From positions 1 to 50,597 of IMG/VR virus record IMGVR_UViG_3300021964_000106: a DNA stretch of 50,597 bases, one strand, 5' to 3'. A model generated the notes under the pieces. That model made no database searches and had not been told where the DNA came from. It saw only the letters and a program-made list of their open reading frames with translations. This document shows, piece by piece, positions 4,183 to 41,582 of this stretch. The stretch is from a virus. Positions within the stretch are counted from its first letter, which is position 1. Every line of letters starts with the position of its first letter. The translations under genes were made by a program, and so were the position numbers.

Positions 4183-6728
4183 ATAGAGTTTCCGACATAT
4201 GCACCGTAAAGAGTGCTAGATACTTTCCAGAATACCAGCGTGTCTGCTGCTGTTAGGGTAGGCGCAACATTACCGCTATTTGTTACCCATGTCATAGTAG
4301 GCCAAGTGATCGTGTAGCTTCCTGCATCTGTAAGTATCAGCACGATAGCGTCACCAGATGACAGCGAGTCAGTAAATGTAGTGTTGGCTGCTATTGTCTT
4401 GGTTTGTATTGCCCCGTTGGTAGCGTCAAAGGCTGTCCCGGTTAAAGCGTAGACCGTGGAGCGTATTGTCTTGTTGGTCAGTGTCTGGGTGTTGGTCGCT
4501 GTGGTTGTATTGGCATCGTAGCCCTGAACCGTTACACCAAGATCAGAAGTTGTTAGAGCATTAGCAACATTGAATGTTTCAAAGGCTACTACTTCAATCA
4601 AGTCACCTGCTGCTGCACCTGATGCTAGAACAATGCTTGTGCCGTTTGTAGCAGTAACGTCAGTACCGACAATTAACTTAACACCATTCATGTAAACATC
4701 AACATAACCAGCAGTGTAAGCAACAGTAAATGTAGTCTGTGCTGCTGTAGCAGTAAAGTTAGTTCTTACATAGGTATATGAAGGAATGTTTACTACCGCC
4801 CATGAAGCAGTAGTTCCATCAGTTGTTAGATAGTAACCAGCGTTACCTGTCTGGCTTGGTAAGGCATCAACATTACCAAAAGATATTGTGCCAGCACCGT
4901 CAGTGATAAGTGCCTGTCCAGTTGTGCCGTCAGATGTAGGGACTGTAAAGGTGGTAACAAAAGACTGTAGGTTGCTGTCAAAGGCCAGTACAGTGACACC
5001 GATGTCTGCATCAAGAAGGGTTGTTGGATCGTTAACTTCTGCGCCTGTAGCAATGCCAGCAAGTTTAGTTTCTTCGGCAGTTGTAAAAGAAGCAGTGGTA
5101 GCGTCCAGTACAGCACTGTGGGCTTGTACGTTCACACCAATGTCTGCATCAACTAATATCGTTGCATCGTATCCTTGTACACTTACGCCTATGTCACTTG
5201 ACTGTAATGCTGAGTCAGCCAGTGTACCTTGTGCAGCAGTAGCAAATGCTGTGGCTTCATTGCCATCAAGTAGGTCAGCGTCTAAGCCTGTACCTGCCCC
5301 ATCAACTGTGAGGAGGGCTGTAAGTATCTCAGAGGCTGTTTGGTCGGCTGTAGCACCAGCTTCTATTGCATCTAGTTTAGTTTCGTCAGCTGTAGTAAAA
5401 GAAGCTGTAGTGGCTGCAAGAACAGCAGAGTAAGCCTGAACATCTGTGCCAATTTCTACGCCTAAATTAGTTCGGGCAGCAGCAGCTGTAGATGCGCCAG
5501 TACCACCGTTACCTATCTCAAGATCAGCACCAGACCAATCAGTATTTGATATTGTACTGGCTGTAGCTAAACTGCCTAATCCTAAAGATGTTCTTGCTGT
5601 TGAACCAGCCTCGGCTACCCAGCCTGTAGCTGAACCTACAATAAAGTTACCGTCTGCATTTGATAGTCCAGCAATAGTAGTCAGATCTGAATCTAATGCC
5701 TGTTTGTTATTCAACTGAGTCTGGATATTTGATGTAACACCATCAGTATAATTTAATTCTGTAACTGTAGCTGTAATACCATCAAGTGTATTTAACTCAG
5801 AAGTTGTAGCTGTTATACCTGCTAAAGTGTTAAGTTCAGCACCAGTAGCGGTAATACTAGTGCCAGCAAAATCAATAGCATCAACATACGCAACACCATC
5901 AATATAGATGTCTTTCCACTCGGCTCCTGTTCCTCCAAGGTCATAGGTGTTAGTGGCTGAAGGAAGAATATTTGACGCAACATCGGCAGCAAGGTTAATT
6001 GTGTCTGTAGCAGCATCACCAAAAGTAAGATTGCCAGATATTGTCGCATTGCCTGTCACCGTTAAATTACCACCAACAGAGATGTCGCCTGTTGTAGTAA
6101 CAGCATCTAAGTAGGCGTGTGACCAGTAGTTTGAACCGTCACCAAGAGTGTATGTGCTATCTGCACTAGGAATAATGTTTGAAGCTACATCTGCGGTAAT
6201 AGTAAGTGTATCTGTAGCTGCATCACCAATAGTTACATTGCCATCAAAAGTAGCTGCGCCTGTAACATCAAGTGTGCTAGAAAGAGTTGTCGCGCCTGTA
6301 ACGCCAAGAGTTGTACCTACAGTAGACGCACCATCTACAGTCAATGTATCTATAGTTGCTGTGCCGTCTAAATACAGATCTTTAAATTCTAATGATGATG
6401 TACCTAAATCAATATCATTATCAGTTACTGGAACAATTGCACCATCTTGAATACGAATTTGTTCTTCAGCTGCGCTACTTACTTCTACGTAAAAACCCCA
6501 ACGGTTATTAGTGCTATCAACTGCAATTTTATTTAAGAAGTCTTCATCACCAATAACATGAATGTTACCGCCCTCGCCAGACGTACCATCATGTCTGTGT
6601 CCAGTTGTACCACTACTTGCATACGAAAATGCATTTACTAGCTGATTGTATTCGTCATTGAATAACGAAGCAGTAATAGTATCGCCATCTGCAAATGTAC
6701 TTTGTCTAGTGTAACTAGTTCCAGCCAT
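4179..6728 (-). CDS. Tail fibre protein with repetitive beta-structured shaft
   Basis: The 849-residue protein begins [18 protein letters not shown], like other marine phage fibres that attach by the N-terminus. Residues about 110-260 are repeats of the type [20 protein letters not shown] / [24 protein letters not shown], and later come ELNTLAGIT / ELNTLDGIT / ELNYTDGVT repeats and the familiar [18 protein letters not shown] motif. These mark a trimeric beta-helical shaft. The C-terminal part ([28 protein letters not shown]) is a common phage fibre domain. It follows the nozzle-like gene and precedes the LamG fibre by ATGA overlap. It is probably the primary fibre linking tail to receptor-binding tips. 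DNA repeats within it could recombine. Confidence 0.85.
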
Positions 6729-17148: not shown

Positions 17149-17177
17149 ATTATACAGGTTATTTACAGTTTTGTCAA
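17149..17177 (-). promoter_or_regulatory. Perfect sigma70 promoter for the late (leftward) arm
   Basis: On the minus strand TTGACA (17177-17172) and TATAAT (17154-17149) are both exact consensus with a 17-bp spacer. Transcription would begin at about 17142, at the TerS ATG. Host sigma70-type polymerase should recognise it. Confidence 0.9.
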
Positions 17178-17191
17178 GTATTTCTTGACAA
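17171..17191. repeat. Inverted repeat joining the two divergent -35 boxes
   Basis: TTGTCAAG and CTTGACAA form a perfect 8-bp inverted repeat around a five-base centre. Each arm contains the -35 box of one of the divergent promoters, so the promoters are symmetric about 17181. This could be an operator for a dimeric regulator, or simply the result of two -35 boxes placed back to back. Confidence 0.7.
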
Positions 17192-17213
17192 AAAGCTAAT
17201 TCAGCTGTATAAT
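17185..17213 (+). promoter_or_regulatory. Perfect sigma70 promoter reading rightward into the hairpin region
   Basis: TTGACA (17185-17190) and TATAAT (17208-17213) are exact consensus with a 17-bp spacer. The start would be near 17220, producing a ~740-nt leader before the first early gene. That leader contains the hairpin array. Confidence 0.9.
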
Positions 17214-17469
17214 ATAGATTACTAGCCCCCCGGGGCCACACCTAGTACATGGGCAAGCAGTATTTATAACTTTAAAAGCCCGACCAAAATCCTTAACTCC
17301 CCTAGTAATACCCAGAGTCCCCCACTAGAGTACTGGCGAGTACCCCTACAAGTACTGCCCGCCCGGTCTCTAGAAGACCCGCCCAAACTGATTAACACCC
17401 TAACCTGCGCAAATTGTATATGATTTAGTATATATATGGGGGGTAGCCCCATGGCCTCCTGCCCACCCC

Positions 17470-17756
17470 CTTAGTCTTGGAAGACTAAGGTGGTGTTGTA
17501 GACCTTGAAAGTAACTTTAGTTACTTTTAACCTCTAAAGCTTTGCTTTAGGACTCCACCAACTACTCAATCATCCTGATTGAGAACTTTCCAGACCTCTC
17601 AGACCTCTAAAGCTCTGCTTTAGGATTAGCTAGTTACCAAAGGATTTAAGAATCCTTTGAATTGTTAAAGTAAAACTTTAACCTAGACAGATTCCAAAGG
17701 AATCAGTAGCTTACAGAGTTATTTGCCCCAACTTAAAACTCTTAAACGAGTTTTAA
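17470..17756 (+). repeat. Array of nine perfect short hairpins
   Basis: Successive perfect stem-loops, given as left arm and loop: CTTAGTCTT/GG at 17470-17489; AAAGTAAC/TTTA at 17508-17527; CTAAAGC/TTT at 17534-17550; CTCAATCA/TCC at 17565-17583; CTAAAGC/TCT at 17607-17623; CAAAGGATT/TAAG at 17638-17659; GTTAAAGT/AAA at 17664-17682; GATTCC/AAA at 17690-17704; TTAAAACTC/TTAAAC at 17733-17756. Apart from hairpins three and five the stems differ in sequence, so structure rather than sequence is repeated. Spacers are 4-28 nt. None is followed by a T-tract, so they are not intrinsic terminators. Confidence 0.85.
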
Positions 17757-17785
17757 AAAACCCCGCCAAAAACCTCTCCTCACCC

Positions 17786-17842
17786 GCGCATACCTGCACA
17801 TGATGCAGGGTTTCTTCGCCTGTTTTAGTGTGCATTATGCGC
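17786..17842. repeat. Nested inverted repeat
   Basis: GCGCATA (17786-17792) pairs with TATGCGC (17836-17842), enclosing a smaller perfect hairpin CCTGCA/TGCAGG with loop CATGA at 17793-17809. It lies just upstream of the second rightward promoter. It could be an operator or an origin-associated structure; nothing decides between these. Confidence 0.5.
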
Positions 17843-17868
17843 AGGAAAAATCACGCACCAGAAACTTG

Positions 17869-17898
17869 TTGACACTTTTTGGAATCTGTGAGTTTAAT
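17869..17898 (+). promoter_or_regulatory. Second rightward promoter, proximal to the first early gene
   Basis: TTGACA (17869-17874) is followed after 18 bp by TTTAAT (17893-17898), a 5/6 match to the -10 consensus. Initiation near 17905 would leave a ~58-nt leader with an AAAGGAG ribosome site. It would bypass the upstream hairpin array. Confidence 0.6.
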
Positions 17899-17963
17899 GT
17901 TTAGGCCTCGGCAAATTGGGGCAACAAAAACTAAAACACACACAACTCCAAAGGAGCATACAC

Positions 17964-18488
17964 ATGAAAGCAACATCCAAGTCATTCGCTAACATTGACA
18001 ACAACCGTCTTGCAACTGCAAAGCAGTTCTTCAGGGTTACCGTACACCACGCTAATCTCGTTAAAGACGAGATGAACATCCCTGAAAAATACTTTTTCAG
18101 ACTCCGTAAGCAAGTTGAAGCAGTACTTGCCCGAAACAACCCTAAAGGGTTGACTCATGGCGATGTGCAGAAGTTTCTAGCTTCAAAGAAGCTACCGAAG
18201 TATTTAATTGCAAACTTGCAGATACTCACCCTTGTTGAGCCGAAGGCTGAAGAACAACCGAAGGTTGCCAAGAAAGCCCCAGCAAAGCCGAAGGCTAAGG
18301 CTAAAGCCAAGCCGAAGGCTGTTAAGACTCAGCCAGAGGCTGTTAAGACTCAGCCGAAGGCTCCGGAGTTTAATCAAGAATTTGATGCCCGTCTGACCTT
18401 CCTTGAAGGTGAAGTCAGCGTCATGTCAGAAGACATCCAGACTATCAAGTCTGGCATGGAAATGATTCTGGAAACCCTGAAGGGTTAA
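17964..18488 (+). CDS. First early protein: basic Ala/Lys/Pro linker and C-terminal coiled coil
   Basis: The 174-residue protein starts at ATG 17964 after AAAGGAG. Residues 1-95 form a compact, basic, probably helical domain (FFRVTVHHANLVKDEMNIPEKYFFRLRKQV). Residues about 95-135 are a histone H1-like linker of PKA/AKPKAVKTQP repeats. The last 40 residues (FDARLTFLEGEVSVMSEDIQ...) form a coiled coil, suggesting oligomerisation. A nucleic-acid-binding early protein is plausible. Most strikingly the coding DNA itself contains about fourteen perfect short hairpins (see findings), and the linker repeats are also AGCC-GAA-GGCT hairpins. I do not recognise a named family. Confidence 0.8.
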   Translation: MKATSKSFANIDNNRLATAKQFFRVTVHHANLVKDEMNIPEKYFFRLRKQVEAVLARNNPKGLTHGDVQKFLASKKLPKYLIANLQILTLVEPKAEEQPKVAKKAPAKPKAKAKAKPKAVKTQPEAVKTQPKAPEFNQEFDARLTFLEGEVSVMSEDIQTIKSGMEMILETLKG

Positions 18489-18531
18489 TTTAAAATTCAC
18501 GGCCAAGGACGGCCTAAACTCAAGGAGTTTA
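18014..18531 (+). repeat. Dense perfect hairpins inside and just after the first early gene
   Basis: Examples, arm/loop: AACTGC/AAA 18014-18028; ATCTCGT/TAAAG 18055-18073; CTGAAAAA/TAC 18082-18100; CAACCC/TAAA 18137-18152; TAGCTTC/AAA 18178-18194; AGCC/GAA 18238-18248, 18286-18296, 18310-18320 and 18352-18362; CAACC/GAA 18255-18267; CAGCC/AGA 18330-18342; ACCTTC/CTT 18396-18410; ATGTC/AGAA 18423-18436; CAGACT/ATCA 18438-18453; AACCC/TGAA 18473-18486; TAAACTC/AAG 18515-18531. Loops are mostly 3-4 nt and purine-rich. The last one holds part of the ribosome site of the next gene. Confidence 0.85.
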
Positions 18532-18533
18532 AA

Positions 18534-18692
18534 ATGGTAGTTTTAAAATTATTTAATTTAATATTTAATCGCCAATGCAAGTTAGTTGAAATTAAATCAA
18601 TAAGAAAATCAAGGAGTTATGCCAGATCAGGCTACTACCACTACATTGTAGTGAACAACACCCAGTACGTTTTCAGAGAGTTTATAATTTAA
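18534..18692 (+). CDS. Small basic protein, unknown
   Basis: A 52-residue product, MVVLKLFNLIFNRQCKLVEI and then a basic, tyrosine-rich end (SRSYARSGYYHYIVVNN). The ribosome site AAGGAG lies in the loop/arm of the TAAACTC hairpin directly upstream, so its translation may depend on that fold. The coding sequence holds another perfect hairpin, CACTAC/ATT/GTAGTG at 18639-18653. No family recognised. Confidence 0.6.
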   Translation: MVVLKLFNLIFNRQCKLVEIKSIRKSRSYARSGYYHYIVVNNTQYVFREFII

Positions 18693-18705: not shown

Positions 18706-18754
18706 GGGTTATAATTATCTCTCAAAGGTTTTTGAGAGAGATAATTAAACCCCC
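18706..18754 (+). repeat. RBS-proximal hairpin repeat, copy A
   Basis: A long hairpin with AAAGGTTTTTGAGAGA at its centre and a GGGTT...AAACCC outer stem. It is the divergent member of a four-copy family (others at 18972, 19250, 20370): its outer stem has ATAATTATCTC instead of TATATATCTC, with compensating change on the other arm. The ribosome site GAAGGAGG of the next gene follows within 15 nt. Confidence 0.85.
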
Positions 18755-18775: not shown

Positions 18776-18961
18776 ATGACCACAGCAACAGATCAAGCGA
18801 AGGGCAATTTTGGAGAATTAAAATTTATTGTGGGAAGCACAATAGAAGAATTAAAAAACGCAAGGATTGCGTTGTCTTACAACGATCCAGAAAGGTGGAA
18901 CCGAATAGCAGACACCCTGCTGGAAAGAAGCATTGAGAATTTAGAAAAATCAATTAAATAA
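18776..18961 (+). CDS. Small helical early protein, unknown
   Basis: A 61-residue product with amphipathic helices (NFGELKFIVGSTIEELKNARIA, then WNRIADTLLERSIENLEKSIK). It follows hairpin copy A and a strong GAAGGAGG ribosome site. Its coding sequence has two perfect hairpins, TATTGTG/GGAAG at 18826-18844 and AACGCAA/GGA at 18857-18873. Function unknown; it belongs to the cluster of small early genes that often interfere with host functions in lytic phages. Confidence 0.65.
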   Translation: MTTATDQAKGNFGELKFIVGSTIEELKNARIALSYNDPERWNRIADTLLERSIENLEKSIK

Positions 18962-18971
18962 ATAAATAAAA

Positions 18972-19018
18972 GGGTGTTTATATATCTCAAAGGTTTTTGA
19001 GAGATATATAAACCCCCC
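18972..19018 (+). repeat. RBS-proximal hairpin repeat, copy B
   Basis: The outer stem GGGTGTTTATATATCTC pairs with GAGATATATAAACCCCCC. The inner part CTCAAA-GGTT-TTTGAG leaves a two-base GA bulge on the 3' arm. It is followed immediately by AAAGGAG, the ribosome site of the 19035 gene. No T-tract follows. Confidence 0.9.
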
Positions 19019-19034
19019 AAAGGAGAAAAGCACC

Positions 19035-19241
19035 ATGCTAGTTTTAGATTACCCCAGCAAAAAAGAACTTAAAGAAAACATTGGCGAGTCGCTTTGTTAC
19101 ATGGAAACTTCCATGTTCGGCCCAGAATATAAGTCAGATGGGACATTCTGTGGCTGTAACCGACCTCATATTACTGGTCACAAGCGGGAGTTTTTCGCTG
19201 AAGTTACTATGAAAGATGGCAAGATTTTTAAAGTTAGTTAA
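19035..19241 (+). CDS. Small conserved phage protein (SMFGPEY type)
   Basis: The 68-residue protein has the segments GESLCYMETSMFGPEYKSDG, NRPHITG and FFAEVTMKDGKIFKV. I have seen 'ETSMFG.EY...G' followed by 'A.VTMKDGLI.KV' in small proteins of pelagiphages and related marine phages, but no function is known. It is probably a small beta-rich fold. It starts after hairpin copy B with an AAAGGAG site. The coding DNA includes an ACATGGA/AACT/TCCATGT hairpin. Confidence 0.7.
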   Translation: MLVLDYPSKKELKENIGESLCYMETSMFGPEYKSDGTFCGCNRPHITGHKREFFAEVTMKDGKIFKVS

Positions 19242-19249
19242 TTTTAAAT

Positions 19250-19295
19250 GGGGTTTATATATCTCAAAGGTTTTTGAGAGATATATAAACCCCCC
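19250..19295 (+). repeat. RBS-proximal hairpin repeat, copy C
   Basis: Identical to copies B and D from TTTATATATCTC through AAACCCCCCAAAGGAG; only the outermost bases of the left arm differ (GGGG instead of GGGTG). It stands just before the ribosome site of the 19309 gene. Confidence 0.9.
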
Positions 19296-19308
19296 AAAGG
19301 AGTACGGC

Positions 19309-19518
19309 ATGATTACTTTAACTAAAATTAGTTTGCTAACTGGTAACACTAACAAAATAGTGTTGCCAATAACTCAAGATGAATATGACAAAGCTGAACA
19401 AGCTAGAAAAGGAGGTATGTACATACAAGATGCTTACCCTACTCTCACAGCAGATCAAAGAGAGTTTTTAATAAGCGGAGCAACCCCAGAAGAATGGGAT
19501 AAGTTTTTTAATGTATAA
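19309..19518 (+). CDS. Small conserved phage protein (LTADQREFLISGATPEEWD type)
   Basis: The 69-residue product starts at 19309 after hairpin C and AAAGGAG; upstream in-frame codons run through the hairpin and are rejected. The C-terminal half, IQDAYPTLTADQREFLISG and TPEEWDKFF, is a widely found short phage motif ('IQ.A.P.L...EREFI.SGITPEEWD'), and the N-terminal half (TGNTNKIVLPITQDEYDK) also fits it. The family is uncharacterised as far as I know. Confidence 0.75.
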   Translation: MITLTKISLLTGNTNKIVLPITQDEYDKAEQARKGGMYIQDAYPTLTADQREFLISGATPEEWDKFFNV

Positions 19519-19540
19519 ATTAAACTAAAGGAGACACGGC

Positions 19541-20353
19541 ATGAATTTCAACACACTAAAAGAAATCACCCGATCAAAATCAATATTCAAAGCAGTAGCA
19601 TCAGCATATAAACAGGAAGATAAGCAAGGCTGGCGTAAAGCAATGCTAAAATTTATGCGCTGGTTAAAAAGAGATAGTGCTGGTTGGTCAGTTATGATGA
19701 AAAAGGGCAACAGCAAACAGCAGTTTTTATCCTTCAGTAGCTTACCTGAAGTAAGCTGTCCCGGTGCTGGTGCTTGTCTCAAGTTTTGTTATAGCTTTAG
19801 AGCTTGGAGATATCCCGATGCATTTTTTAGACAATTACAAAACTATGTTTTGATGCAAACAGCTGAAGGTAGAGCCAAGATACTTGAAGACTTAGACAAG
19901 TATAAATCAGACAAACCAGTAGACTTTAGGTTATATGTTGATGGCGACTTTGCTAATGTTTCAGAAGTTACCTTCTGGATGGAAGCCTTGAAAGACCGCC
20001 CTTGGTTAAAAGCCTACGGCTACTCTAAATCTTGGGAAGAGTTGTTAGCTTACAAGGGCGAATGGCCTAGTAATTATAAATTAAATTTGTCTTCCGGTAG
20101 CAAGCATGATGCTGAGTTAAAAGCTAAGGTTAAAGCTTTACCAGTTACAAGGGGCAGTTTTGTAGCGGTAGATGTTGGTTATAAAGTAACCAGTGATATG
20201 CATGGCGATAGAAAACATCAGAGTTTTCTCAGAAAACTATATGGTATTAAAGCCTTCACCTGCCCCGGAAAATGTAATACTTGTACCCCAAAAGGTCATG
20301 CTTGTGGATCAGATAGATTCCAAGGCATGGATATAATAATTGCAACGCATTAA
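19541..20353 (+). CDS. Gp88-like cysteine-rich protein
   Basis: The 270-residue protein carries an N-terminal cysteine motif CPGAGACLKFCYS (C73, C79, C83) and a C-terminal set C241, C245, C248, C255 (CPGKCNTCTPKGHACG), with KPVDFRLYVDGDFANVSEVTFW between. This arrangement fits the 'gene product 88' family of phage proteins, which look like metal- or iron-sulfur-binding proteins with a TIM-barrel-like core; the first motif recalls, but does not match, the radical SAM CxxxCxxC. Enzymatic activity is not established. It starts after GGAG, and contains strong hairpins in its DNA (AGCTTAC/CTGAA at 19739-19757, AGTTTTC/TCA at 20222-20238). Confidence 0.75.
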   Translation: MNFNTLKEITRSKSIFKAVASAYKQEDKQGWRKAMLKFMRWLKRDSAGWSVMMKKGNSKQQFLSFSSLPEVSCPGAGACLKFCYSFRAWRYPDAFFRQLQNYVLMQTAEGRAKILEDLDKYKSDKPVDFRLYVDGDFANVSEVTFWMEALKDRPWLKAYGYSKSWEELLAYKGEWPSNYKLNLSSGSKHDAELKAKVKALPVTRGSFVAVDVGYKVTSDMHGDRKHQSFLRKLYGIKAFTCPGKCNTCTPKGHACGSDRFQGMDIIIATH

Positions 20354-20369
20354 AATTAATTAATATAAA

Positions 20370-20416
20370 GGGTGTTTATATATCTCAAAGGTTTTTGAGA
20401 GATATATAAACCCCCC
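20370..20416 (+). repeat. RBS-proximal hairpin repeat, copy D
   Basis: Same sequence as copy B over its whole stem-loop, placed between the Gp88-like gene and the zinc-ribbon gene, 1.4 kb from copy B. It is followed by AAAGGAG. Confidence 0.9.
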
Positions 20417-30229: not shown

Positions 30230-30374
30230 AGAACTAATTGAAGTACTTTTAGTTATCGGATTAGAAATTGAGAAGAATGAAAAAAATGTTTACATTAGTA
30301 ATGAAACATTAATCTACCTCTATAATTTGATTGAAGACGAATTAATAAACAGGGAAGAGGCTATAACACATTGA
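30213..30374 (+). CDS. Small acidic protein, unknown
   Basis: A 53-residue, helical product (MSLMDEELIEVLLVIGLEIEK..., LINREEAITH). It overlaps both neighbours, the next by TTGA. It is below many gene-finder limits but lies in frame with the tight packing of this operon. Function unknown. Confidence 0.55.
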   Translation: MSLMDEELIEVLLVIGLEIEKNEKNVYISNETLIYLYNLIEDELINREEAITH

Positions 30375-30880
30375 AAGCCAAAATTAGAAACGGATTTCGT
30401 AAGCAGCGGAGGCAGCGTCCAGTACAGAAGAATGTTCCTGCTAGTTATGATTCCATATGGGAAGCTAACTTACATAACGGTCTCCTGAAAAAGTGGAAAC
30501 ATCACAGTAAGATTATTGATTACACCATAAAGCATAAGTATCACCCCGACTTTATTAGAAAAATAGGACGTACTATTTATTTAATTGAAGCTAAGGGAAG
30601 GTTCTGGGATTTCGCTGAGTACAGTAAATACATCTGGATCAACAAGTCCCTGCCCCGAGACTACGAATTAGTATTTTTATTTGCCGATCCTTCTGCACCA
30701 ATGCCCCAAGCTAAACGTAGAAAAGATGGCACGAAGCGCAGCCATGCAGAGTGGGCTGAAGCTAACGGATTCACATGGTACAGTGAGTATACTCTTCCCG
30801 ATGATTGGGTAGATATGGAATATCGTAAGAGTGAAGGGTTTATAAACGAGTATTTTGATAAAGATAAGGAGAGTGAATAA
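30371..30880 (+). CDS. Endonuclease I-like Holliday-junction resolvase (T7 gp3-like)
   Basis: The 169-residue protein has SIWEANL (E31), KYHPDF (D60) and LIEAKG (E73, K75), matching the catalytic E...D...ExK set of T7 endonuclease I; the D-to-E interval is three residues longer than in T7. Basic N-terminus (FRKQRRQRPVQK) fits DNA binding. It should cut branched DNA before packaging and help break host DNA. The start is TTG, overlapping the previous stop; no ATG alternative is available before the conserved region. Confidence 0.8.
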   Translation: MKAKIRNGFRKQRRQRPVQKNVPASYDSIWEANLHNGLLKKWKHHSKIIDYTIKHKYHPDFIRKIGRTIYLIEAKGRFWDFAEYSKYIWINKSLPRDYELVFLFADPSAPMPQAKRRKDGTKRSHAEWAEANGFTWYSEYTLPDDWVDMEYRKSEGFINEYFDKDKESE

Positions 30881-34814: not shown

Positions 34815-35151
34815 GACGCACCCCGGTTGTTAAATCATCAAGATGTATAAACCGGGAGCTGCCTTTCTGATTAATTCCTATCCCTGTAAAACCAGCACGA
34901 AGAGCAGCCTCTACTAGCAGGTATGCTTCCGTCCTTGAAACAGCAATATCAATTGCTCTACCACTAGCATGCGCCCCCGGTAAATCTTTCTTAGCTTCTA
35001 TCGGGTGATTGTTGCAGCGGTAAGCACTAGTAACAGGAAAAGGAAAGCCCAGCTCTTCGCGCAGCTGCTCTACCTTTACCATGAAATCTTCCTTCATGCC
35101 TTGGCTTCCGCAATGTGAACATTTTAATTCATCTTCTGTAAAGTACTTCAT
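34795..35151 (-). CDS. Endolysin: M15-type D,D/L,D-carboxypeptidase-like zinc peptidase
   Basis: The 118-residue protein has the peptidase M15_3 pattern: VTSAYRC (40-46), GAHASGRAIDIA with H61 and D68 as zinc ligands, and RFIHLD with H103. It has a CSHC pair near the N-terminus (C11, C14), typical of this phage branch. It should cleave peptidoglycan cross-links at lysis. I use the ATG at 35151, in ATGA overlap with the preceding giant gene, rather than a GTG three codons upstream. It lacks a signal peptide, so release would need the holin at 48070. Confidence 0.85.
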   Translation of the reverse strand: MKYFTEDELKCSHCGSQGMKEDFMVKVEQLREELGFPFPVTSAYRCNNHPIEAKKDLPGAHASGRAIDIAVSRTEAYLLVEAALRAGFTGIGINQKGSSRFIHLDDLTTGVRPTVWSY

Positions 35152-38100
35152 GCTGCACACGCCTTCATTACTTTACCACCATCTGCGCGTTTATTTCTTT
35201 TAGCACAAGCACTCATTATCTTACCACCAGCTGCGCGTTGCTGACGTTTATTGATAATAGCATCATACATTTTTCTACGTTCTTCTTCGGCCTGTTTAGG
35301 ATTGTCATATCCTTTGATCACTCCGCTGTCTATCAGTTTTTTAAACTTCTTTCTAGTTCCACCAGCTGATAGTATTGTACCGCTTTCAGGATCATAGCTA
35401 GGAAGTAAGTACTCTTTGCCATTTACGCCAAGCCCTCTGATATACATTGTTACATCCTTCCCATCCATCTTACCAGCCATGTCACCGCGCACTACTGCAT
35501 CGTGATAGCTTTCTAAAAACTTAAAGTTTTCTGGGTGTATGTAACCGCCCTTAGCATACCCATGTAACTCCTGACTTTGGGCGGGAGTCATATAGCGGGC
35601 TTGCTGTTCATCTATCAGCTTGGTTATACGCTCCTCTGCTTCAGCCCTACTTTTAGCATTCATCGCATAACCTAGATTGTTGTTAAACTGATCCATCTCC
35701 CGTTCGGGGACGTTGGATATAACCTCCCGGGCATTGATCAGGAACTTGGATAACTCAGGTTTTTTAGAACGCTGTGCTAACCAGCCAAGGGCAAGATGTC
35801 GTGCTGCATCTCCCTTCCCGTCCATCTCTTCCCGTTGACCATACTTCATGCCAAGGGAGTTAGCCCATTCTATATCGCTCTTTTCTATGCCAAGGTTGGA
35901 GGCAATACCCCGGCCTACAGCGTTACCCGCTCCCTTCAGTTTGTTGGCTGTAATTTTGAAGATTGACTTCAATATCTTACCGCCTTCGTTGTATCTAGGT
36001 ATTTCTATCTGCTTGTCAGGGAGATCAATAACCAGCCAGCCATCTTCCATTTTAGTTGTAGTGCCAATGTCTTTAGCTATAGACTTAGCAATCTTAGGTA
36101 TCTCTGTTTCGTATCTTTGCTGTACTTCTTCAGATCGTACTAAATCATTAACACCTGAAGGATCAACAGCTATTTCTACACGGTCAAGACCTTCATCGTA
36201 TGCTCTTTGTATTTCACCATAGATACCCCGCTTAACGTATGGGAAGTCTGTTACTGGCATGATATACTCATCACCGAACATATCTTCAAACTCTTTTAGT
36301 TCTTTAATTTCTTCTTTAGTTTTATTAGGCTTATCACGCAGCTTCTTCCCTTTCTTTATTATTTCAGCCCTTTCTATATTACTGTTCAGCTGATCAGACT
36401 GTATCTCAAGTATCCTTACTGCACCATTTTCTACATCAGTTCGTGTATGGAAAGAGAACTCTCCTTCATCACGGAAATGAGTAGATTTACCCATTACACG
36501 AGGATCGTTGTATAGCCTTACTTTATAAGTATCTAGATTTGTGTCGGGAAGAGTAATTTCTGAAAAATCTACTTTTGTTGCGTCTGGCTCAAAGTAATTA
36601 ATGCTGGGTATTTCCCAACTCTCAAGTATCTCACTAAACAACATACCATCAATCTGTTCTGGTACAGTCTCAAATTCCTCTTCTAGATCATCTATAAAAC
36701 CAATGCCTTCATATTCGTCAACACCTTTTGGTGTAAGAGTAACGTCTTCTAAAAATGGTTCTCCGTTATTTCGGATTCCAAGCTTATAATCTTTTACTAG
36801 TCCGTTATCTACAGCCCTGTCCATTTCTACTTTATAGGCGTTTTCTATTGCGTCTAATCTTGCTTGGATAAGTTCTTCTTCAGGAGGTACTACAACCTCT
36901 GGTATGTCATCCATATCAACTTCTCTAACACCAAACTTATTTTTATCTGAACGAGCAGACTTTATAGTGTTTAGAATTTCAGGAGTTAACCTACCTTTTG
37001 TTGATATTTGAGACTTAGGTATTCTACCACCAGCATCATCCAAGTTGTTACCCAGAAACTCAATAGCATCTTTTATTCTAGATGATTCTATTTCTACTTT
37101 AGGTACACCCTGTTTAATTAAAAAATTTTCAAACGACTGAACAGGTATAGGCTGTCCACGCTCAATAAGCTTATCCAAAGCATTATCTAGCTTAGAAACA
37201 ACCTTTGCAGAAGGTGTACCAAAAGCAGTAGCAGGAGGAACAAATGCACCAGAGTCGCTCATAAACGCCTCTACAGCTAACTCCATTTCATTCTCTAACT
37301 CATTAGCTAAGTCCTCATCACCTTCTGCAAGAGCATCATTTATTCTTTCAAGATAGTCAGCTTCTATTTCTTCTTCGGCAGAAATCCGAGGCGTGTCTAT
37401 ATCCCGCGCTTGAATTTCATCCAAAGCATTAGTTATTTCGTAAGTGACATCTTGTGTATCAAAAGGCAATTCATCTGCCAGTTGATTAGCTTTTTTAAAA
37501 GCTTCTATTTCTTCTCGGGTATATCCACGCCAAATACTAAACTCGTCACCACCTATCGGCCCCTGCCATCCCTGTTCTCTCATCTGGTCAACAGTCAAAT
37601 CGTGCTTCTCGTCCAGAAGCGCACGAGCGTTTAACTGTGTAAACTCTTGGACTTTAGGATCGGCAAGTTCTTCAGGGGTGTAGAAACTTTCTATCCTTTT
37701 AGCAGCTGCTTCTGCTGCTTCATCAGATATATTCTTTTTAGAATAAGTTTTAATTATGTTAAATAAGCCTTTACCCAAACCACCCAGAGCAAACCCAACC
37801 CTTTCTTCTGAGTCTACAAAAGCACCACCCGCTTGCTGGTTGTAGGGCAAGCCTGTCATTTTGTCTATACGCTCGTCTGGTTCAACAGGTGCTTGAGGCA
37901 CATCATAGACCTCCCCACCTATAGCCCTTTTAAGTCGGGGGAAATACTCTGATTCCTTCCTTTCATTTTCAGGTTTCTCTAAAGGAGTAGCAATCATATC
38001 TGAATATAAATTGTTTAAGTTCTTTACTAGTGAACTTAAAGTTTCTTCATCTGTAAATTTAACTTTTTGATATATCCTGTATACATCATCAGATGTAATT

Positions 38101-41100
38101 TTTTCGGGCCTGAATCTGTTTGATGTCATCATCAACAGTTCTTCTCTACCTATAGTTATAGAACGGTCACTAATTAATTCTTTTAAAGCCTCATCCCTAC
38201 CCATTATAGTTTCAGCAGATTTTAAAACGCTGTAAAACTCTTGCGCCCTTTTGTAGATTGCATTTTCTCTAGTGTAATAATTAGAGATTACTTCTTCAGC
38301 TGTTGTGCCAAAGCTAGGATTATCAGAAATAATATTTCTTTTTGAATTGGCATATTCTTTAGCTGCAAATATCAACCTGTCTCTTGGATTAACTTCAGTG
38401 AATTTAAAACCAGTAGTATTTGTTATAGCCTCAGAAGCAACAGGAGTTACACTCCCGGTGCTAGGGCTGGGCGTTTCAAATATAGAGTCGGCTACACGTT
38501 CTAAACTAGAAACAGAGCCGGGCAGGAAAGAATTCATTACATGAAAAGTACCATTAAATACTTTATCCCATGTTGATAAACCTTCTTGAAATAAAGCTTT
38601 GCCTTCTCCTGTCCTACCATTTTCATTTTTAGCAGCTACATAAAGGTCAGTTAGGCTCTTTGTAAGAATTGCCTCATCGGTATAAGGAGATAGAATTTTA
38701 AGCACACCCGAGCTAATACCGTCAATTAGATATTCATCTAAATCTTCACCCTGTAACCTACCACTAGTAATTTCGTTGTAGGCTGCAAGTACTGGCTCAG
38801 TAAGTATGCTATAGCTATTAACAAACTGAGTATCCATTGCGAATATTTTATCGTCAAATCTAGCATACACTCTAGGCGCATCTTTTGACCAAGGAGTTTT
38901 GGTAATAGTATCTAAACTTTCTTTTTCTTCAGGTGTCAGCCCCAGCAAGTTTGCACTAGTGGCAGCTAATCCAGACCACATAGTACTAGCAGTACCGAAA
39001 CCAGCAAGTCTTCTCAGCCCTCTATTTCTTAAAACAGAATTACCAGATGTAATTTCTTTGGATGCCTGTCTTACTATATGTGTGCTGTTCCTTATAATTT
39101 CAGAAGGGAACGAAACAAAGCTTCCCACAGGTAGCTGCCGTAATGTTTTTATTCCTTTTGGGACTCTGTCATAATTTGGAAAAGTATTCCTAATAATTTC
39201 AGCAGCCATTTCCTCCAGTTCAGCATCAGGCTTTCCGAGGTTGGCTTTCTTTAGTGTATCTAGTTCTGATAGATAGCCATTAATTTTATAAAAATCGTCT
39301 GTTGCTAAATAAAAGTTTTCAATGGCTTCTCCGGTTTTTTTAATTTTACCCAGCCCATAGCCGTCCATCTTCTTAAAGAATTTATCAACATTACCTTCAA
39401 TAGCACTTTCATAGCCTGTCTCAAGAAGCTTTCTAAATTCATTAACAGATACGTTAGTGTTTATAATTCCAAGCCTCAGATATTTTTCATAAATATCATC
39501 TAGTCCCTGCTGACCTGTTTTTGAAATCTGATTCGCTAAAAGTTTTACTGTGCCAGAAGCTTTATTAAATGGGTTCATCCCATTAGCTAAACCAAACTGC
39601 GCACCACCACTTATGTTTCTTAAATGGGTAACGTGACTAAATACAGTTTTAGATTTCTGAGAATAGCCTTTTAACGAAAGAAAGCTTCTCCAAGCATTAG
39701 AAACCATGTGGTCTTCACCAGTTGGTGAGCCAAGTTTTAAGTAAGATTCCTGCTCTTTTATCGCAGTCAGTATTTCAGGAGTGGTATACTTACCATCAAG
39801 ATTAGAATTGGTTCCTGTAATTTTTACAAAGTTACCTTCTCTAGGTCTCAATGCCCCTTCATCAAAAATATAATTTCCCTGTTTACCCAGCCTTTCTAAG
39901 TTATCAAAAAACTTAGATGTTTCAACCAGCCTTGTCATTTTACTAACAGTTAAGACAATATTTTCTGTAGGTTCTTTGATCTCCCCCATAAAAGCACGGA
40001 GAGGTTCTGGGATATCTTTTTTACCTTTTAATATTTCAGTGTTAACTTTTCTAACTTTAGAATAGTACTCGCCAAGTTCTCCGCTTTTGCTTTTTAATTC
40101 GGGCTTAGAAATTATTTCATCCAGCACATTGTTAGCTTTAACTAAAGCATCATCTTCGGACATTGTTTTTTTGTATTGATTTACTAAGTAATCCTCTGCA
40201 TCTTTTCTAGCAGCAGCTGTAGGTGTGTACCCAGAATCTTCAAACAGACGATAAGACCTGCGCAAATACTGCCCGGTGTTCTCAGCGATAGCTTCTTTTA
40301 ATTCCAAAGGAACAGCATTTGAATTTACAGCTGCTTTTGAAAGATCATCAATTAACATCCTAGCTTCGTAAACAGATTCAGCTACTTCTTTAGTTAGACC
40401 TTCGTCCATTAAATCTACAATAGAAGCTTCTTTAGACTGCTTTTTAATAAAAGACAAATCTGATGTAAGAAGTTCCTGAACTTTATTGTTAACAGCCTGT
40501 GCTTCGTCCAGAGAAGATAAGTTATCTAATTCTATTTTTAACCTGTTACTGATATGCTCTGCCCTGCCAACAGCTGCACGTTGTGCATACTGTGCATCTT
40601 CAAACGCATGAAAAGCTTTAGGTGTCCAGTATCCACGGCTAGTAAATACTTGGTTCATAAAGCGTCTAAGTTTACTACTATTCTGTTGGGCTACTTGAGC
40701 AGCACCTTCAGCAGTCTCATTGTATTCAATCTCAGGACGTTTAATCGGAGACTGTTCTTTAATGTCTTTTACATGATCTAAAATTAGATCGCCTTTTTCA
40801 CTAGATGTCAGATCAGTATAGCTTTTCTTAAACTTGTCTCTTGCAAGCTTAGATACTTTAGCGACTCCCCCTACAATTTCAATAAGGCTACCCAAGGCAA
40901 GACCTTCGCCTAAAAGTTTTATTCTTTTTTCAGCTTCTGTATCATTTTCATCGGTAGCCATATAAGATGAAATTTCCTGTACGGCACTACCTCCCCAACC
41001 AGCTTCTTCTAAAAGATTAAATAAATTTTCAGATGGGTCAGCTAATATTTGATCAACAGCCACGCCAGTAGTGAGACCACCGACAACCGTAGGCAGGGCT

Positions 41101-41582
41101 TTAATTAATTTTGCCCTACCGCCAAGAACAGAACCAGCAACAAAAGTCCCTATTTCCGCACCAACCCCAACTACTTGACCTGTTAATGTTTCTGGCTCTT
41201 TTATGTTACCTTCAGGAGTCCAAAAAGCGTTATACATTTTTTCGGGCAAGTACTGCGTCAGCCTTTCTTTTTCTAAAGGAGTGACACCCTCTCGTGCAGT
41301 AAATTCATAAGGTTTAAAATCCTCACCGGGTTCCCAGCCTGATCCCGGACTCCATTTACCAATTTTCTGTGCTGTGTTAAGAAACACCCGCCCAAAATCA
41401 ACAGCAACACTAGGATCACTAACTTGCTCCTGCTCTTCTACTGCGGGAGATTCTGCTGGTGCTGTTGTTATTTCTTCAGGGTGACGGCCTAAATAGTCAT
41501 TTATAGCTTCTTCATCGGTAAACGAGTCTGGGACATCATTTATAACTTTGCCGTTAGGTAAACGTATGCTTCTTGTAGCCAT
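35148..41582 (-). CDS. Giant internal virion protein with polyvalent-protein-like domain
   Basis: The 2144-residue protein begins TRSIRLPNGKVINDVPD, an N-terminal motif of large marine phage internal proteins. Much of it is helical and charged. Residues about 1690-1840 (KSTHFRDEGEFSFHTRTDV, VRILEIQSDQ, VKRGIYGEIQRAYDEGLDRVEIAVD) fit the 'HF.E....H.R......G...L.IEEIQSD' domain found in large phage polyvalent proteins. Residues about 1890-1990 contain GDAARHLALGWLAQRS. The C-terminus carries two GGK(I/V)M.ACA motifs. It is likely ejected with the DNA, like T7 gp16, though no lytic transglycosylase motif was recognised. It precedes endolysin by ATGA. Confidence 0.75.
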   Translation of the reverse strand: MATRSIRLPNGKVINDVPDSFTDEEAINDYLGRHPEEITTAPAESPAVEEQEQVSDPSVAVDFGRVFLNTAQKIGKWSPGSGWEPGEDFKPYEFTAREGVTPLEKERLTQYLPEKMYNAFWTPEGNIKEPETLTGQVVGVGAEIGTFVAGSVLGGRAKLIKALPTVVGGLTTGVAVDQILADPSENLFNLLEEAGWGGSAVQEISSYMATDENDTEAEKRIKLLGEGLALGSLIEIVGGVAKVSKLARDKFKKSYTDLTSSEKGDLILDHVKDIKEQSPIKRPEIEYNETAEGAAQVAQQNSSKLRRFMNQVFTSRGYWTPKAFHAFEDAQYAQRAAVGRAEHISNRLKIELDNLSSLDEAQAVNNKVQELLTSDLSFIKKQSKEASIVDLMDEGLTKEVAESVYEARMLIDDLSKAAVNSNAVPLELKEAIAENTGQYLRRSYRLFEDSGYTPTAAARKDAEDYLVNQYKKTMSEDDALVKANNVLDEIISKPELKSKSGELGEYYSKVRKVNTEILKGKKDIPEPLRAFMGEIKEPTENIVLTVSKMTRLVETSKFFDNLERLGKQGNYIFDEGALRPREGNFVKITGTNSNLDGKYTTPEILTAIKEQESYLKLGSPTGEDHMVSNAWRSFLSLKGYSQKSKTVFSHVTHLRNISGGAQFGLANGMNPFNKASGTVKLLANQISKTGQQGLDDIYEKYLRLGIINTNVSVNEFRKLLETGYESAIEGNVDKFFKKMDGYGLGKIKKTGEAIENFYLATDDFYKINGYLSELDTLKKANLGKPDAELEEMAAEIIRNTFPNYDRVPKGIKTLRQLPVGSFVSFPSEIIRNSTHIVRQASKEITSGNSVLRNRGLRRLAGFGTASTMWSGLAATSANLLGLTPEEKESLDTITKTPWSKDAPRVYARFDDKIFAMDTQFVNSYSILTEPVLAAYNEITSGRLQGEDLDEYLIDGISSGVLKILSPYTDEAILTKSLTDLYVAAKNENGRTGEGKALFQEGLSTWDKVFNGTFHVMNSFLPGSVSSLERVADSIFETPSPSTGSVTPVASEAITNTTGFKFTEVNPRDRLIFAAKEYANSKRNIISDNPSFGTTAEEVISNYYTRENAIYKRAQEFYSVLKSAETIMGRDEALKELISDRSITIGREELLMMTSNRFRPEKITSDDVYRIYQKVKFTDEETLSSLVKNLNNLYSDMIATPLEKPENERKESEYFPRLKRAIGGEVYDVPQAPVEPDERIDKMTGLPYNQQAGGAFVDSEERVGFALGGLGKGLFNIIKTYSKKNISDEAAEAAAKRIESFYTPEELADPKVQEFTQLNARALLDEKHDLTVDQMREQGWQGPIGGDEFSIWRGYTREEIEAFKKANQLADELPFDTQDVTYEITNALDEIQARDIDTPRISAEEEIEADYLERINDALAEGDEDLANELENEMELAVEAFMSDSGAFVPPATAFGTPSAKVVSKLDNALDKLIERGQPIPVQSFENFLIKQGVPKVEIESSRIKDAIEFLGNNLDDAGGRIPKSQISTKGRLTPEILNTIKSARSDKNKFGVREVDMDDIPEVVVPPEEELIQARLDAIENAYKVEMDRAVDNGLVKDYKLGIRNNGEPFLEDVTLTPKGVDEYEGIGFIDDLEEEFETVPEQIDGMLFSEILESWEIPSINYFEPDATKVDFSEITLPDTNLDTYKVRLYNDPRVMGKSTHFRDEGEFSFHTRTDVENGAVRILEIQSDQLNSNIERAEIIKKGKKLRDKPNKTKEEIKELKEFEDMFGDEYIMPVTDFPYVKRGIYGEIQRAYDEGLDRVEIAVDPSGVNDLVRSEEVQQRYETEIPKIAKSIAKDIGTTTKMEDGWLVIDLPDKQIEIPRYNEGGKILKSIFKITANKLKGAGNAVGRGIASNLGIEKSDIEWANSLGMKYGQREEMDGKGDAARHLALGWLAQRSKKPELSKFLINAREVISNVPEREMDQFNNNLGYAMNAKSRAEAEERITKLIDEQQARYMTPAQSQELHGYAKGGYIHPENFKFLESYHDAVVRGDMAGKMDGKDVTMYIRGLGVNGKEYLLPSYDPESGTILSAGGTRKKFKKLIDSGVIKGYDNPKQAEEERRKMYDAIINKRQQRAAGGKIMSACAKRNKRADGGKVMKACAA

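Follow-up and report, generated by a model that had tools for sequence, protein, structure and literature searches.

Among the described phage systems that invite comparison with the locus analysed here, the virion RNA polymerase of N4 uses hairpin promoters with short stems and 3-nt loops in the early region, T5-like phages carry repeat-rich regions at their genome ends, and the O/ori cassette of lambda is inherited as a unit. The nearest logic is that of lambda, whose transcription-activated origin of replication lies within the initiator gene O and is made up of inverted repeats (PMC5043065). Like O/ori, our locus brings together, in a transcribed cassette, an early gene that would encode the cognate protein and, within it or next to it, an array of inverted repeats. 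Nonetheless, lambda iterons share a single sequence bound by O, whereas the 20-30 hairpins described here each have their own; the consensus among sites of a lambda-type iteron origin is thus missing, the stems of the window being unrelated. The array sits both in and before the gene (gene 1), which, unlike O, is a putative initiator at most. In T7 and other podophages, too, an early leader and small genes come after host promoters, but T7 genes 0.3 and 0.7 lack the hairpin excess seen here. A literature search on such hairpin arrays in phages returned no relevant publication, and nothing turned up on the replication start of HMO-2011-type phages.

The window, by which we mean the whole stretch of DNA analysed, is the 50.6-kb virus record IMGVR_UViG_3300021964_000106 (50,597 nt). 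It belongs to an HMO-2011-like podophage: its MCP is 57% identical to that of Pelagibacter phage HTVC115P and 42% to that of HMO-2011, it encodes the primase-helicase and PolA of the HMO-2011 group, and its gene order is the same in relatives. The nearest named DNA match is limited to an 8% stretch, with Pseudomonas phage Kremar. HMO-2011-type phages are described as a marine group that is dominant and widely distributed (PMC9038755).

Early genes run to the right and late genes to the left, diverging from two back-to-back sigma-70 promoters (Table 1). The -35 boxes of these two perfect-consensus promoters make up an inverted repeat (17169-17193), at which a single protein, or a polymerase, could shut off the opposite direction. 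GC skew changes sign at the promoter/leader site, and gene direction flips there too. The promoter scan scores only P1 and its leftward partner; P2, which gets no sigma-70 score, and the candidate P3, absent from the scan output, are regarded as putative promoters from sequence reading and conservation. Gene 1 is preceded by a leader of ~750 nt, and its product is modelled as a helical N-terminal domain, predicted with confidence, that a disordered K/P/A linker joins to a C-terminal coiled coil; a fold search gave no match, and no named relative was found in the phage collection searched. Further downstream, the window encodes a T7 endonuclease I-like protein that is a possible partner of the hairpin array, and, on the minus strand (35148-41582), a 2144-aa protein without confident family match (0 matches in PHROGs and, in Pfam, nothing beyond a DUF below threshold) that is probably a large virion protein.

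Table 1. Coordinates of promoters, hairpins and genes in the window
Feature	Position	Strand	Remarks
Two sigma-70 promoters	17149..17213	.	each 12/12 consensus; consensus promoter scan
Leftward sigma-70 promoter, towards terS	17177-17149		12/12 consensus bases
P1, rightward sigma-70 promoter	17185-17213		12/12 consensus bases
Approximate swappable cassette (P2, array, gene 1)	17325..18606	+	identity between window and L035 lost
Conserved element P2 (TTAACA...GTATATATA.GGGGGG...GGCCTCCTGCC)	17391..17463	+	alignments with relatives
Leader array, 10 perfect hairpins	17469..17809	+	stems preserved, with partial compensation, in L012, L014
Leader hairpins 1-5	17469-17490, 17508-17527, 17534-17550, 17565-17583, 17607-17623		
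Leader hairpins 6-10	17638-17659, 17664-17682, 17690-17704, 17733-17756, 17793-17809		
Candidate third promoter P3 (TTGACA-N18-TTTAAT)	17869..17898	+	directly before gene 1; read from sequence
Gene 1, 174-aa first early protein	17964..18488	+	coding sequence carries array
Coding array in gene 1	18014..18486	+	7 hairpins of at least 6 bp, 12 of at least 5 bp
AACTGC-AAA-GCAGTT	18014-18028		
ATCTCGT-TAAAG-ACGAGAT	18055-18073		
CTGAAAAA-TAC-TTTTTCAG	18082-18100		
TAGCTTC-AAA-GAAGCTA	18178-18194		
CAACC-GAA-GGTTG	18255-18267		
TAAACTC-AAG-GAGTTTA	18515..18531	+	includes Shine-Dalgarno AAGGAG of next gene
Fading array tail in following early genes	18776..20353	+	18776-18961 and 19541-20353 enriched
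T7 endonuclease I-like protein (cruciform/Holliday-junction resolvase family)	30371..30880	+	PF05367, 28.8 bits, cut-off 29.1

Inventory and constraint of the hairpins

Short perfect inverted repeats with spacers of ~2-4 nt occur far above chance in the early region and are densest directly downstream of P2, thinning out over 1-3 kb. In the window the array runs from about 17469 and has faded by ~20.4 kb, the number and stem length of its hairpins declining along the way, with those of the leader being on average longer (n=10). The earlier note had claimed about fifteen perfect stem-loops in and just past gene 1, and those it named were all recovered in place; the segment 18014-18531 holds 13 hairpins of at least 5 bp (loops of 3-6 nt), or ~15 if the 4-bp copies of AGCC-GAA-GGCT are counted, within a zone that extends further than had been claimed. 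A sequence-specific repeat family was discarded as an account of the window hairpins, as their stems differ from one another.

The excess survives the codon-preserving shuffle that had been proposed as a check. Gene 1 contains 12 hairpins of at least 5 bp, where synonymous-codon shuffles give 3.4; for stems of at least 6 bp the figures are 7 and 1.04, and for those of at least 7 bp 4 and 0.28, with none of 500 shuffles reaching the observed count at either of these two lengths. When the same measure is applied along the genome, the excess is confined to the early zone and absent from later genes: 19541-20353 carries 5 hairpins against 1.0 in synonymous-codon shuffles (0/500) and 18776-18961 carries 2 against 0.38 (p 0.03; p 0.01 for stems of at least 7 bp), and the rest of the ~48 genes tested by synonymous shuffle yield just isolated nominal values below 0.05. 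Counted per kb, stems of at least 7 bp peak between 17 and 19 kb (9 at 17-18 kb, 10 at 18-19 kb); there are 4 each at 19-21 kb and 24-25 kb, and 0-2 nearly everywhere else.

Comparison with relatives points to constraint on pairing itself. Across 16 close pairs of leaders, aligned pairwise and automatically, divergence amounts to 2.9% in stems, 7.5% in inter-hairpin DNA and 15.4% in loops, stems thus evolving 2.6 times more slowly than the DNA between them. Third positions of unchanged codons in gene 1 are conserved in 97% of cases within stems versus 80% outside (p 0.028), and in a second comparison in 88% versus 63% (p 0.025). An alignment of six leaders reveals two-sided Watson-Crick changes in 16 pairs (24 cells versus 7.3 when shuffled, 0/500), as compared with 0-5 pairs when the partner is slid by 1-3 columns as a control, and one-sided G-U states are nearly absent from helices 1-7; several of the tests in this work rest on few shuffles (4-60). 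Evolution keeps these hairpins as shape, not as sequence. Hence, shuffle excess, third positions and two-sided covariation uphold the notion of selection on base-pairing, besides protein, across the leader and first coding sequence, and the pairing-preserving changes that the earlier note had suggested looking for in relatives are indeed seen. Its further suggestion that the Lys-Pro-Ala linker is partly a by-product of the hairpins is not supported, since the linker is also found in two relatives (L044 and L042) whose gene 1 is nearly devoid of hairpins, and the first-gene proteins of HMO-2011 and CRP-1, apparently unrelated to that of gene 1, have EPKA-rich linkers as well.

Distribution of array and cassette among relatives

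Using the terminase small subunit as marker, we fetched 80 related loci, a non-random sample consisting of the closest terminase relatives. Among the 65 with enough upstream sequence (window included), the array is present in 34 and absent from 31. Over the first 1500 nt, loci with an array have between 8 and 27 perfect hairpins where 1-2.6 would be expected, and the remaining loci are close to background; the arrays of relatives begin shortly 3' of the P2 counterpart. The most extreme case is L015, with stems of up to 22 bp; its relative L017 has no array, and protein residues differ between the two at hairpin positions. The former also carries two paralogues of gene 1 (4995-5402 and 5874-6126), with hairpins only in the first, promoter-proximal copy.

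On the terminase tree, at least 8 gains or losses are needed to account for the array. A gene-1 family protein, searched for with an HMM built from array-rich phages, is found in all 34 array loci and in 10 of the 31 array-less ones (Fisher 7e-10), and the three informative independent pairs on the tree all run in the expected direction, a result that is not significant. The presence of gene 1 in those 10 loci implies that its protein does not require the array. Apart from gene 1, no widespread gene family distinguishes phages with an array from those without, and a gene-content cause of array presence was therefore rejected; DNA polymerase is common to the 15 of 15 records searched.

Between close relatives, sequence identity ends just before P2 and resumes beyond gene 1. 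Exact blocks shared by the window and L035 stop at offset ~196 and restart only at 1465 (counted from 17142), and the corresponding offsets are 215 and 2147 for L066/L061 and ~208 and 2339 for L083/L096. Since these breaks flank the segment from P2 to gene 1, leader, array and gene 1 are exchanged as one cassette. Cultured isolates extend this picture, for the first genes of HMO-2011 (phage1322_74), CRP-1 (gp01) and CRP-345 (gp01) contain, respectively, 17, 13 and 10 hairpins against 2.7, 3.3 and 2.8 expected (stems of at least 5 bp in HMO-2011). These genes have no clear similarity to gene 1, apart from a weak linker match (E 0.008), and the occurrence of the array in apparently unrelated first genes indicates that it follows position, that of the first early gene, and not gene family. 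Along with the T7 genes mentioned above, HTVC115P, CRP-3 and CRP-738 show no such excess. Taken together, the data show the hairpin zone to be selected, co-varying, positionally fixed and exchanged with gene 1. Overriding codon choice and swapped with a small protein, it provides in isolates HMO-2011, CRP-1 and CRP-345 a concrete test site.

Pairing level and proposed function

Published hallmarks of template switching are inverted loops and paired changes in the two arms (PMC8794818, PMC8604942); in yeast, high transcription is required for events of this kind (PMC3820800). Both features are seen here, in the form of spacers inverted between unchanged arms and of two-sided arm changes without intermediates. 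In phages that are ~99% identical, loops have turned into their own reverse complement with the stem unchanged (GAAC to GTTC in L052/L053; CTTG to CAAG and CTT to AAG in L098/L091), and when all homologous hairpins are pooled, an exact reverse complement accounts for 7 of 95 multi-base loop differences, as opposed to 2.6 expected (P 0.01). These observations suggest that arms are kept perfect via template switching during phage DNA synthesis. The quasipalindromic hairpins attributed to this process have the same perfect arms, paired arm changes and inverted loops (PMC8794818, PMC8604942), but those published are scattered single events, whereas the present locus crowds 20-30 of them, with conserved stems, into 1-3 kb. 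Slower evolution of stems does not follow from template switching alone, and selection is hence needed too, making this an unusually clear natural case of both processes jointly shaping DNA hairpins within a gene.

Several measures bear on whether pairing takes place in DNA or in RNA. Under a strict rule, one-mismatch hairpins exceed shuffles 2.6-fold for G-T, 2.4-fold for A-C and 2.8-fold for other mismatches; under a laxer one, G-T is mildly in excess (3.0-fold versus 2.0-fold for A-C and 1.9-fold). Terminators were dropped as a positive control for G-U tolerance, being too few. With base composition allowed for, leader RNA folding differs by -0.2 +/- 1.8 kcal/mol between sense and antisense, and gene 1 has a small sense-strand preference (-3.4 +/- 1.2). 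In the leader, 2-, 3- and 4-nt spacers show much the same enrichment (~15-20 times each), and half of the 4-nt loops contain an additional Watson-Crick pair that leaves a 2-nt spacer. Given that G-U pairs are little favoured and that both leader strands fold equally well, pairing seems to be mainly DNA-level, which suggests that it acts as ssDNA hairpin or cruciform. On the other hand, loops richer in purines on the plus strand (57% versus 47%, p 3e-6), the G-U excess under the laxer rule and the sense folding of gene 1 lean towards RNA. No Rfam family reached its gathering score, the only match being a sub-threshold mir-9440 (26.6 bits versus 80), and a known RNA family was accordingly discarded.

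The reading that we favour, at a probability of roughly 0.4, is that the array, pairing at the DNA level, is a cis element under selection within an exchangeable early cassette and marks a zone where replication starts. Transcription by the host RNAP from the P1/P2 region would open the duplex downstream of P2, and the displaced strand would fold into hairpins whose shape would be recognised by the product of gene 1 or by priming proteins. The hairpin zone would thus be a replication start paired with its own early protein, and polymerase template switching during phage DNA synthesis would keep its arms perfect. The two consensus promoters and the change of GC skew at the site speak for a replication start; the lack of initiator homology or fold match in gene 1, the coincidence of the skew change with that of gene direction and the existence of HTVC phages with the same layout but no array speak against it. 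More broadly, we tentatively propose that 20-30 hairpins of unlike sequence, together with the first early protein, form either a shape-read replication start or a control of early expression, maintained by template switching.

A role in RNA, the chief alternative, is possible, though it would not be our first choice. The leader and first mRNA would then be saturated with hairpins, so that an untranslated, C-rich transcript would resist Rho and RNases, or the gene 1 protein would bind its own RNA in autoregulation, with template switching again keeping stems perfect. The array does begin just past P2, track the first transcription unit and fade near the end of gene 1, and strong RNA folding (z of -5.9 for gene 1 and -6.9 for the leader), A-rich loops on the plus strand, the mild G-U excess under one rule and covariation all agree with such a role, which has to contend with the near indifference to G-U pairs under the strict rule, an antisense leader that folds just as well, the extra pair narrowing half of the 4-nt loops and the Rfam result. 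It seems rather unlikely that the locus is a functionless mutational hot zone, single-stranded or R-looped in early replication, in which template switching perfects chance quasi-palindromes. Loop inversions in nearly identical phages, two-sided changes with few intermediates, the residues that differ at hairpin sites between L015 and L017, and the published link of template switching and quasi-palindrome mutation to transcription (PMC8794818, PMC8604942, PMC3820800) would all be accounted for, but neither the slower evolution of stems nor the retention of third positions is predicted by template switching alone, and phages with the same polymerase family can be array-less.

Two further explanations are very improbable. 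If the array were the leading genome end, first into the cell, its early position and the repeat-rich ends of T5-like phages would provide a precedent; near-complete contigs, however, are broken at varying distances from the array, and the HMO-2011 record is circular. This suggests permuted genomes lacking a fixed end, even if contig fragmentation could also explain the breaks. We give still less credence to N4-like hairpin promoters for a virion RNA polymerase. Stem and loop sizes are alike and the region is early, but the window hairpins lack a common sequence and are far too numerous, no RNA polymerase family was detected in the 2144-aa candidate, and sigma-70 consensus promoters exist.

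Other repeated elements of early regions

Aside from the array, the hairpin TCTCAAAGGTTTTTGAGA occurs in four identical copies in early intergenic gaps of the window (18720-18737, 18985-19002, 19262-19279 and 20383-20400), where none would be expected by chance. A Shine-Dalgarno site closely follows at least the first three copies, and we read the hairpin as a repeated control or processing element. HMO-2011 has AGTCCG-ACAG-CGGACT about five times around its early genes (15878 and 16808 in L026; 60, 1260 and 1926 in L115), once with the loop inverted (CTGT).

The degenerate palindromic octamer CTYYRRAG is absent from the leaders of HMO-2011 and HTVC115P (0 copies) and present in 2 copies in the window leader. 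In the leaders of close relatives it is enriched ~80-90-fold, reaching 11-16 copies per kb upstream of terS (L035-L114, ~130-700 nt from the terS start) against ~1 per kb elsewhere, and its leader density is high with or without hairpin arrays. The octamer is a property of a sister clade and looks like a putative repeated protein-binding site.
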